Shown here one piece after another: positions 39,205 to 41,870 of a DNA stretch of 64,000 nucleotides. The notes under the pieces are model-generated. The model did no database searches and was not told the DNA's origin. It saw only the letters and a program-made list of their open reading frames with translations. The stretch covers positions 124,001 through 188,000 of the forward strand of contig CACYHQ010000004.1 of the NCBI GenBank assembly GCA_902774245.1, in the 5' to 3' direction. The translations under genes and the position numbers were made by a program. Within the stretch, counting starts at the first letter, position 1; each line of letters opens with the position of its first letter. This DNA is from an uncultured bacterium. Its GTDB lineage: Bacteria; Verrucomicrobiota; Lentisphaeria; Victivallales; UBA1829.

Positions 39205-41217
39205 TTACTTCTTCAGCACCTCAAACAGCGCGCACACTTCGTCGTCGTACAGACAGCGGAAACGTTCCGGATGCGCTTTCGCCGCACGGTACTCCCAGCC
39301 GGGATCCGGCAGGCGTTCCGCATCGTCGCTGAACTCGATATAGAGATAGTCCGCGCCCGCCGCGTCCAGACGCGCGATCCATTCCTCCGCATCGACCGGA
39401 TCCGACCTCATTTCCGCAAGCGATCCGAATTCGTGCGGCTTCAGCGAATTCTTCCTGTTGATCGGGATCGAGACCACACGGTTTCCGGTTGCATCCTCCA
39501 TGAACCCGTAGGAGAACATGGTCCCGATCACCGCCGTCGTCTTCGGACCCTCGTCCTCCGACGCACGGATCACCTGACGGATGCATTCCGCAGGGCCGCG
39601 ACCGAACACCAGCACGTTGCCATGTGCGCGGACGCCGGGGTCAAGTTCCCGCGTCGCCGAGAGGAACGACCCGGCGGGGAAACACAGGACGAGCACAGCG
39701 CAGACCACGCGGCGCATCCAGCGTTCCGGCACGAACATCATCGCCGAGCCGGAGAGCGGGACCAGCACGTATCCGTATTTCGCCGTGACCGGAGAATAAT
39801 AGGCAGCCAACAGAACTGTCAGAACAGCAACGGGAAACACGCGCGGGAAGCGTTCCGCGGCGGGCGTCAGCGCCACGGGCAGCAGCAGGGAATCCGTCAT
39901 GATCCACGGGATGAACTGCCGCGCCTGCGCGATCTCCGGATACACGCTCAACTGAACGGCAAACAATCCGATCAGCGCAAGTGTCAGCAGGATTATCAGA
40001 GCGCGTTCCTGCGTTTTCTTACAGATCAGCACGACTGCGAGCACGGCGAACGGCGCCAGCCCCCACAGGATCCCGCTCGGGATGTTCAGACCCCACGAGC
40101 CGCCGCGGAAGAAGAAGTCCCACGCCTCCGCCGTGAACCCGACCGCGTGCCGTTCGAACTCCAGTCCGGCGTTGAAAATCGGCGGGATGCGCACGGGGTA
40201 GAACGGATTGCCCGTGACGATCCAGCTCCGCAAGTAGAACGGCGCAGCGAAGATGACAGACATGACCGCGGACACGACAACGCATTTGCGCGCGTCCGGC
40301 TTCCGCACGAAGTAATACGCCATGACAGCCAGAGCGAGGACCGGCGCAAGCATCAATCCGGTCAGCTTGATCGAGGCGGCGATCCCGAACAGGATCCCCG
40401 CCCCCAGGCACGATGGCACGTGACGGAGGGACGCCCCGGCGCACAGCAGCGCGAGTCCGGCGGTCAGATATCCGCCGTTCAGCACGTCCGTGTACGCCAT
40501 CGCGGCGTTGCCGGAGACCATGCTCGTGAACATGACCAGCGCGGCGGACGCGAGGCACGCCGTCCGCGACGCCCCGAACAAATTGCCCAGCACGCAGACA
40601 GCTCCGGCGTTCAGCATCAGCGCCCACACCTGCAACAGGCACGCGAAATCCGCGCTCCCCGGCGTCGGCGCCATCAGAAAACAGTACAGCATTTCCCCGT
40701 ACGCCGGGTAGTATTCGCATGTATAGCCCGGGACCGGAACATACGCCAGACTGCCGTCCAGAAGCCACATCGCCGGGAAATACAGGTGGTAGAAAAACGT
40801 GTCCGTCCCGAGGTGCGCCGCGAAACACGACATGCTCAAAATGACCGTCCCGCACAACAGCAGCCCGAAACAGAACTTTTCCTCACGCAGCTTCAGGAAA
40901 AAAGCAGGATTTGTCGAAGCGGACACCTGTCCTTCCTCTCCGTCATTCTTCTGCACGCGCCGCGCGATCCAGTACAATCCGACCGAAAACACCAGACAGC
41001 ATATCTCCACGGAAAAGACCGAAAGGCATCCCAGCGTCCCTGGCACCCCCACGGACGCCAGCATAATCGCCGTGCCGTACGCCGCCGCAAGCAGGAAACG
41101 TTCCGCCGCTCCGAGCACAGGCGACCGCGCGGCATTCCACGCCGCAAGCATCGCGACCGAAACGGGGATGGCCGCGAACAGGAAGAAAAGGACTTTGCAG
41201 AGAAACAGGATCAGCAT
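39205..41217 (-). CDS. Multi-pass membrane protein, GT-C glycosyltransferase-like
   Basis: The 670-aa protein has about 12 membrane helices. An acidic loop with TDTFFYHLYFPAMWLLDGS and YTCEYYPAYGEMLY follows the third or fourth helix, as in PMT/ArnT-like GT-C enzymes that use polyprenyl-phosphate sugars; IKLTGLMLAPVLALAVM and PFYLRSWIVTGNPFYP are also typical. The C-terminal ~130 residues are soluble (ADYLYIEFSDDAERLPDPGW). The donor and acceptor are unknown; an O-antigen or protein-glycosylation role is possible. It stops one base after uvrC ends, tail to tail. Confidence 0.7.
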   Translation of the reverse strand: MLILFLCKVLFFLFAAIPVSVAMLAAWNAARSPVLGAAERFLLAAAYGTAIMLASVGVPGTLGCLSVFSVEICCLVFSVGLYWIARRVQKNDGEEGQVSASTNPAFFLKLREEKFCFGLLLCGTVILSMSCFAAHLGTDTFFYHLYFPAMWLLDGSLAYVPVPGYTCEYYPAYGEMLYCFLMAPTPGSADFACLLQVWALMLNAGAVCVLGNLFGASRTACLASAALVMFTSMVSGNAAMAYTDVLNGGYLTAGLALLCAGASLRHVPSCLGAGILFGIAASIKLTGLMLAPVLALAVMAYYFVRKPDARKCVVVSAVMSVIFAAPFYLRSWIVTGNPFYPVRIPPIFNAGLEFERHAVGFTAEAWDFFFRGGSWGLNIPSGILWGLAPFAVLAVVLICKKTQERALIILLTLALIGLFAVQLSVYPEIAQARQFIPWIMTDSLLLPVALTPAAERFPRVFPVAVLTVLLAAYYSPVTAKYGYVLVPLSGSAMMFVPERWMRRVVCAVLVLCFPAGSFLSATRELDPGVRAHGNVLVFGRGPAECIRQVIRASEDEGPKTTAVIGTMFSYGFMEDATGNRVVSIPINRKNSLKPHEFGSLAEMRSDPVDAEEWIARLDAAGADYLYIEFSDDAERLPDPGWEYRAAKAHPERFRCLYDDEVCALFEVLKK

Positions 41218-41250
41218 CTCAAGTGTTCCGTTATATTGATGTGGTTTTAT

Positions 41251-41278
41251 AGTATAGTTCTCCCCGTGCTTTTTTCAA
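41251..41278 (-). promoter_or_regulatory. Promoter of the GT-C-like gene
   Basis: On the reverse strand there is TTGAAA, 16 bp, TATACT, 34 bp before the start. Confidence 0.68.
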
Positions 41279-41344
41279 GTCGTTTTCCGCATTATTCCGC
41301 GTTTTCGCGATCCCCGGCACGGTTTTCTCCGCGGATCAGGTTGA

Positions 41345-41508
41345 GGGCACCTCTATTAATTGGTCTTCGGAGGCTTTTCGCATCTGGGCAAATTCCAATT
41401 GGTAAGATTTTCGGTGGTTACCTTCAGGTAGCCACTCTCAAATCTTCCTGCATTGTCCTGTTTGCCCATCTGTGGAAAATCCTTCCGCTCGAATTAATAG
41501 AGATACCC
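41345..41508. mobile_element. MITE-like 164-bp imperfect inverted-repeat element
   Basis: The left end GGGCACCTCTATTAATT matches the inverted right end GGGTATCTCTATTAATT at 15 of 17 positions. Similarity continues inward: GGGCAAA at 41386 against TTTGCCC at 41461, and a central palindrome around ACCTTCAGGT at 41420-41429. TTGA stands directly outside both ends (41341-41344 and 41509-41512), as a 4-bp target duplication would. There is no coding frame. It fills most of the 41279-41582 gap. Confidence 0.65.
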
Positions 41509-41536
41509 TTGAAAAAAGGCATTTCCGTGCTATTGT
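41509..41536 (+). promoter_or_regulatory. Promoter of the Nif11-domain gene
   Basis: TTGAAA, 16 bp, TATTGT, with GTGC before the -10. The first four bases of the -35 box are the right-hand TTGA copy of the adjacent inverted-repeat element. Confidence 0.7.
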
Positions 41537-41582
41537 ATCTCATACTACATTCATTCAACATCCATATGAAAGGATTTTTACC

Positions 41583-41870
41583 ATGTCTATCGAACTCGCA
41601 AAAGCATTCTGTGTCCGCCTCATGTCCGACGACGAATTCCGCGACGCCATCGGCCGCGCCGCCTCCGCCAAGGAGATCGCCGACCTCGTCGCCGCCAACA
41701 ACTACACGTTCACCAAGCACGACCTCCTGAAAGTCGTCAGCGACCTCTCCGGCAAGAAGATCGACATGGAACACCTCTCCGCCATGATCTGCGAGGTCTA
41801 CGAGGAAGAGATCAAGACTGAAGGCGGCTCCGCAGATGCCGTTGCCGAGTGGCTTGCATCCCTCCAGTAA
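41583..41870 (+). CDS. Nif11-domain small protein
   Basis: The 95-aa protein (ATG at 41583 after AAAGGA) matches the Nif11 leader-peptide domain over residues 1-70 (MSIELAKAFCVRLMSDDEFR, AKEIADLVAANNYTFTKHDL). In RiPP precursors this leader ends at a Gly-Gly and is followed by a modified core. Here GG stands at 81-82 and the remaining 13 residues (SADAVAEWLASLQ) have no Cys and only one Ser of note. No lanthionine synthetase, cyclodehydratase or peptidase-ABC gene is nearby. It may be an orphan precursor or a non-RiPP use of the fold. Confidence 0.82.
   Translation: MSIELAKAFCVRLMSDDEFRDAIGRAASAKEIADLVAANNYTFTKHDLLKVVSDLSGKKIDMEHLSAMICEVYEEEIKTEGGSADAVAEWLASLQ

Follow-up and report, generated by a model that had tools for sequence, protein, structure and literature searches.

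A palindromic IS5-type MITE with a TTGA target duplication at the -35 box of a Nif11-domain gene in an uncultured Victivallales bacterium, and related elements around one central hairpin

ERIC/REP-type repeats are dispersed palindromic repeats that lie between genes, and the 164-bp element described here resembles them; its membership in that class was assessed by sequence, through the Y1 transposase and Rfam only. Bacterial MITEs, including the Correia elements, are presented in the available part of PMC4133298 as sequences of about 30 to 300 bp with IS-like terminal inverted repeats, short direct repeats, and many copies, some of which hold core motifs for host proteins. The present element is like MITEs in general in size, in its IS-like terminal inverted repeats, in its short direct repeats, and in copy number. 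It differs from the usual MITE of that account in having a direct repeat of 4 bp rather than TA, and its interior recurs with other ends and with other duplication lengths. The same source describes TIMEs, Tn3-derived miniature elements of 262 bp with Tn3-type ends and 5- to 6-bp repeats that usually occur as a single copy and that contain conserved core stretches proposed to shape transcript structure. Conserved core stretches are found here as well, but a core common to several end types is a feature of the group described below, and no such account of TIMEs was found in the available part of PMC4133298. The IS5 group of the IS5 family is represented in Table 1 of that source by four rows, all of them with 4-bp repeats (4/4) and lengths of 1,190 to 1,324 bp. 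The partner IS identified below is like these in passing the family model, in its 4-bp duplications, and in its length of about 1.3 kb, whereas the element itself lacks a transposase and has nothing but its ends in common with the IS.

The element was found in a 64,000-nucleotide stretch of DNA from a gut bacterium, here called the window, and is an imperfect palindrome (GGG...CCC) at window positions 41345 to 41508, taken as lying on the plus strand. Its terminal inverted repeats (left, 41345 to 41361, plus strand; right, 41492 to 41508, minus strand) pair at 15 of the outer 17 positions, and TTGA directly abuts both edges, at 41341 to 41344 and at 41509 to 41512. A central core, TTTTCGGTGGTTAC-loop-GTAGCCACNCTCAAA, lies at 41408 to 41442 on the plus strand and recurs in elements with different ends; within it, GGTGGTTAC...GTAGCCAC forms the core hairpin at 41413 to 41435. 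When single stranded, the element would be one long hairpin on either strand. Indeed, the RNA fold of 41344 to 41510 taken alone reached -71.6 kcal/mol on the plus strand (z = -8.8; none of 200 shuffles folded as well) and -70.7 kcal/mol on the minus strand (z = -8.1), where it also beat the shuffles by far. A first-pass annotation of the window had reported this palindrome, its 15/17 outer match, and the flanking TTGA copies; that observation is confirmed by the sequence and is not due to chance, since three more copies are present in the same genome.

The element sits between two divergent promoter-like sites, and none was found within it. On the left, TTGAAA-16-TATACT, identified by a sequence scan, is located at 41251 to 41278 on the minus strand, ahead of a divergent open reading frame (39205 to 41217, minus strand) whose 670-amino-acid translation is hydrophobic and appears to be membrane bound. 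On the right, TTGAAA-16-TATTGT, whose second hexamer is preceded by TG, spans 41509 to 41536 on the plus strand and shares its first base with the right TTGA. It precedes a 95-amino-acid Nif11-domain gene (41583 to 41870, plus strand; PF07862, 31.0 bits, cut-off 23.8) that has an orthologue in 13/13 genomes of the genus, with one match in each. The protein also scored 28.8 on the Nif11 leader-peptide model, just under the cut-off of 32.3 bits.

To be regarded as a MITE, the palindrome should recur, and other copies with the same ends and 4-bp duplications were indeed found in its own genome and in relatives. The genome (2.84 Mb, 86% complete) holds four copies, of which the other three are 76 to 87% identical to the window element; a strict full-length pattern had given no match in this genome, being too tight. 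Matches by BLAST were obtained in 12 of the 13 genomes of the genus, its own included, and in 19 of 61 relatives, and a covariance model, which the window element itself matches at 156.3 bits, extended the count within the genus to 13/13. No match was obtained in viral contigs with the core pattern or in phages and plasmids with the whole element. Other copies of the window element adjoin unrelated sequence. For the duplication test, the set of 68 copies with this type of end (type A) was reduced to 54 by dropping those with similar flanks; the ends were fixed from the letters of the element alone, and the flanks were compared only afterwards. An exact 4-bp duplication was present in 14 of the 54 copies (shuffle mean, 1.8; maximum, 8 in 5,000 shuffles), and one matching at three or more of the four positions was present in 35 (shuffle mean, 11.3; maximum, 20). 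Duplications of other lengths stayed at about the shuffle level, apart from one 6-bp case. The duplicated letters differ among type A copies (TTGA, TTAA, TGAA, ATTA, GAAA, TTAT, TATA, CGAA, AAAA, TTTA, and TTCA). In the window genome, two of the four copies have an exact duplication (TTGA at the window element and GAAA at L003) and two (L002 and L004) do not; the absence of an exact duplication from 40 of the 54 type A copies was assumed to reflect decay. Small size with terminal inverted repeats, target duplications, multiple dispersed copies, and an autonomous partner with the same ends (see below), all of them features expected of a MITE, were found. Among single loci, one type A copy of 186 bp (L272/L151, in G007) carries a 22-bp direct duplication at its tip. 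An inverted pair of copies (L014) was considered as a composite element and rejected, the open reading frames between the copies not being transposase-like as judged from the list of open reading frames.

The site as it stood before insertion can be read in relatives. Upstream of the Nif11-domain gene, the sequence aligns in 8 of the other 12 orthologues of the genus (L056 to L060, L062, L064, and L065), and each of these contains TTGA only once and lacks the element. The remaining four (L055, L061, L063, and L066) have a different upstream sequence, again without an element at this place, although a separate copy is located some 780 bases upstream in L063. The eight empty sites already read TTGAAAAA, followed by (C/G)GTGCTATTGTAT, and all of them contain TTGAAA together with the conserved downstream sequence CGTGCTATTGTAT/GGTGCTATTGTAT. 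The first-pass annotation had rightly placed the start of the -35 box of the Nif11-domain gene at the right TTGA and had proposed that the insertion created or copied half a promoter. Copying holds, in that TTGA was duplicated. However, the empty sites show that TTGAAA was present beforehand, so that the insertion copied its first four bases and neither created nor supplied a -35 box. Because the target TTGA was the start of that box, the duplication regenerated the box beside the element, and the right TTGA copy still runs into AA. As a sequence, the core promoter came through the insertion intact, with only the DNA upstream of the -35 box displaced, by 168 bp.

The same loci bear on the alternative that no insertion took place and that the Nif11-domain gene has the hairpin as its conserved leader RNA or attenuator. 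A strong hairpin beside a gene, on either strand, is what such an RNA would provide, but the element lies upstream of the promoter and thus outside the leader, a search of 41200 to 41600 revealed no terminator-like site, and the window element gave no Rfam match up to an E value of 5. (Rfam matches at nine related loci were limited to two tRNAs, both outside the elements.) Moreover, the hairpin is missing at this place from 12/12 orthologues in the genus, the empty sites refute a conserved leader for this gene, and the other copies of the element, as stated above, have no common neighbor sequence. We therefore give this alternative almost no credence. The two findings on which the first-pass annotation had said its reading would fall, a lack of other copies and a hairpin conserved as a leader RNA, were both looked for, and neither was obtained.

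A transposase with matching ends, which the first-pass annotation had suggested looking for, was located in relatives. These carry an IS of about 1.28 to 1.29 kb whose ends read, for example, GGGAACCTCTATCAATTCG and GGGCATCTCTATTAATTGC (L207), nearly the same 17-bp ends as those of the MITE; GGGCATCTCTATTAATTGC agrees with each MITE end at 16 of 17 bases. Its transposase passed the NCBIfam IS5-family model NF033581 (284.5 bits; cut-off, 140) and contains DUF772 and DDE_Tnp_1. Exact 4-bp duplications flank three IS copies (TATA at L220, ATTA at L222, and TTAA at L223), and no exact duplication was present at L219 or L188/L221, where decay was again assumed. Long transposase matches within the genus came from G003, G007, G005, and G002, while in the window genome the transposase is only a stub, a remnant of 85 residues that contains five stops and retains one good end. 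The core was sought in the transposase loci (L186 to L239) and was absent. Together, the other copies, the duplication statistics, the eight empty sites, and the IS5-family element with matching ends bear out the MITE-like insertion with a 4-bp duplication that had been proposed, and they leave little doubt that the window element is a nonautonomous IS5-type MITE inserted with duplication of TTGA. The insertion itself is documented by the empty sites; the duplications and the partner IS point to a mechanism in which an IS5-family transposase, supplied in trans, would have put the 164-bp element into TTGA with a 4-bp stagger.

The element belongs to a wider group of palindromes of about 165 bp. 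Fourteen elements were used to build a covariance model, which had matches in 52 of 137 genomes of the order, comprising 23 of the 36 genomes in the family of the window and 29 genomes in a second family (f4), and most of the matches listed span all 165 model positions. A scan of named genomes with the core pattern returned at least 119 stretches, with titles that name Lentisphaeria, Lentisphaerae, Victivallales, or Victivallaceae metagenome-assembled genomes or "uncultured bacterium." The 3.5-Mb genome G107 of family f4 had 131 model matches, the highest number among the 18 genomes counted. At least three end types surround the same central hairpin, and each of types A, B, and C is represented in both families. 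Type B, found in a sister genus, has the ends GAGGYAATTTCAAAAGTC around the same center, TTTTCGGTGGTTAC-loop-GTAGCCACNCTCAAA, and duplications of 4 bp, with some of 5 bp. The termini of type C elements, close variants included, read for example GGCGGCAGTGTCAAAAGT or GACGGCACTGCCAAAAGT. Among 53 type C rows, which include one place twice (L351/L383), tandem neighbors (L401 and L402), and two type B copies (L389 and L390), exact duplications were of 6 bp in 15 (shuffle mean, 0.43; maximum, 4), of 4 bp in 5, and of 5 bp in 6. Direct tandems of two or three copies with 4 to 6 bases between them were observed at G079:C15:42428-42935 (L401), G079:C80:9478-9979 (L402), G079:C44:937-1268 (L352), and G088:C19:71267-71597 (L338).

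An IS with B-type ends (L304, positions 751 to 2146; duplication, ATCC) encodes a 354-amino-acid transposase that showed no significant similarity by BLAST to its type A counterpart (E = 0.076) and fell below every NCBIfam cut-off. It is located in G029, a genome without model matches, and a type B transposase was sought in the B-rich genomes G018, G025, and G031 and not found. No partner for type C ends was found among the transposase loci collected. The end types were compared by aligned identity against shuffles that were not realigned, which favors the observed values. Between the window element and a type C element (L053), the arms agree at 42/83 positions (shuffle mean, 21.6; maximum, 37) and the ends at 12/39 (mean, 9.3; maximum, 19), with 82% identity in the core. 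Between the window element and a type B element (L042), the arms agree at 24/83 (shuffle mean, 21.4) and the ends at 19/39 (mean, 10.3; maximum, 21), again with 82% in the core. The end identity of 19/39 points to a partial likeness between the A and B ends, which may be distantly related. A literature search, from which subscription journals were mostly out of reach, returned no description of this element group. The combination of differing ends and differing duplication lengths around one kept central hairpin was unexpected.

The interiors of these elements vary. In G018, which has 176 type B ends (at most one mismatch), 20 stretches picked by size comprised 6 with the core tip, 8 with a TCCTCC...GGAGGA tip, 1 with a nested tip, 2 with longer tips, and 3 bare ones, so that the core is not universal. 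The other tips of type B elements in this genome were seen at L280 to L289 and L299: besides the plain TCCTCC...GGAGGA hairpin, there was a case with this hairpin nested in the loop of the core (L287), and there were longer tips at L288 and L289. The bare end pairs (L290 to L292, also in G018) are 40 to 42 bp long and have no interior. The TCCTCC pattern did not occur within the window. By comparison of the elements, their layout is one of concentric modules, namely ends, pairing arms, and central hairpin, in which arms, tips, and ends look like exchangeable parts and each end type would fit one of several transposases. A coding function of the core was considered and rejected: a frame is open in some type B and type C copies, but it contains a stop in type A and G018 copies.

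Alternatively, the palindrome might have grown around the central hairpin, which would be a REP-like unit mobilized by a Y1 (RAYT/IS200-type) transposase. It is a small hairpin with a mismatched pair, as such a unit would be, and other tips exist, including the one nested in the loop of the core. However, Y1_Tnp was detected in only 4 of the 14 host genomes searched and not in the window genome. Of 53 core matches in the genus, 47 lie inside listed elements and the other 6 are all in G008, with no solitary core seen among the 47. Moreover, the duplications and the ends fit DDE transposases. This origin is thus very improbable.

In the consensus fold, 24 of 34 pairs show compensatory change. 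The stem pairs of the core covary, one of them occurring as T-A in 66 rows, C-G in 12, and G-C in 7. In 28 of 54 type A copies, the two arms carry an identical 4-nucleotide block behind CTCT, where shuffles gave a mean of 5.8 and a maximum of 14; common descent inflates this count. In 5/5 IS read (L207/L216, L219, L220, L221, and L223), the block at one end is unlike that at the other. Template switching is described as maintaining hairpins in PMC8794818 and PMC8604942, and hairpin arms in the former, and switching of this kind inside the hairpin has probably kept the arms matched here. It is about an even chance that nothing more is needed and that the interior is functionless, the elements being old MITEs of common descent with arms homogenized by template switching and a core whose conservation is an effect of how the searches were seeded. 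The agreement of arm blocks within a copy is consistent with this, though the block differs between the two ends of the IS; so are the other tips tolerated in G018 and the lack of a gene-orientation bias in type A. In same-direction gene pairs, the type A core strand was sense in 11 cases and antisense in 11 (97 elements; crude open reading frame calls); the type B core strand was sense in 3 and antisense in 18, from crude calls mainly in three genomes.

One feature of the core is difficult to reconcile with such homogenization, which should erase a T-G wobble pair. After opposite-strand and identical entries were dropped from the 114 model matches at 95 chosen loci, 101 rows were left; the pair was T-G in 93 of these and Watson-Crick in 3, although most rows came from queries that included the core and the count is biased accordingly. 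Yet T-G is also kept (6/6) in the core-bearing elements that were picked out solely by their type B ends, and in L293 the pair is still there even though the tip flank is now a perfect palindrome. Since template switching should remove the T-G pair and the pair survives, we infer that the strand may be read folded, as RNA or as single-stranded DNA, and the tip would then probably be recognized as a folded strand. On this basis we put forward, tentatively and with rather more doubt than assurance, that selection acts on the central hairpin as a module in its own right, recognized in folded, single-stranded form through the nearly invariant wobble pair T-G (U-G), which the palindromic elements of two families kept as their ends were fitted to at least three different transposases (4-, 4-, and 6-bp duplications).

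For the Nif11-domain gene, the locus offers a clean case of a target duplication that fell on a -35 box and thereby preserved it. A MITE beside a promoter is in itself ordinary, and the idea that a promoter was created falls. If the wider reading of the central hairpin is true, the interiors of MITEs would not be mere filler; one hairpin would have persisted across an order even as the ends around it were exchanged, and transposase change in nonautonomous elements, arm pairing, and the reading of the tip by the host would all become testable.
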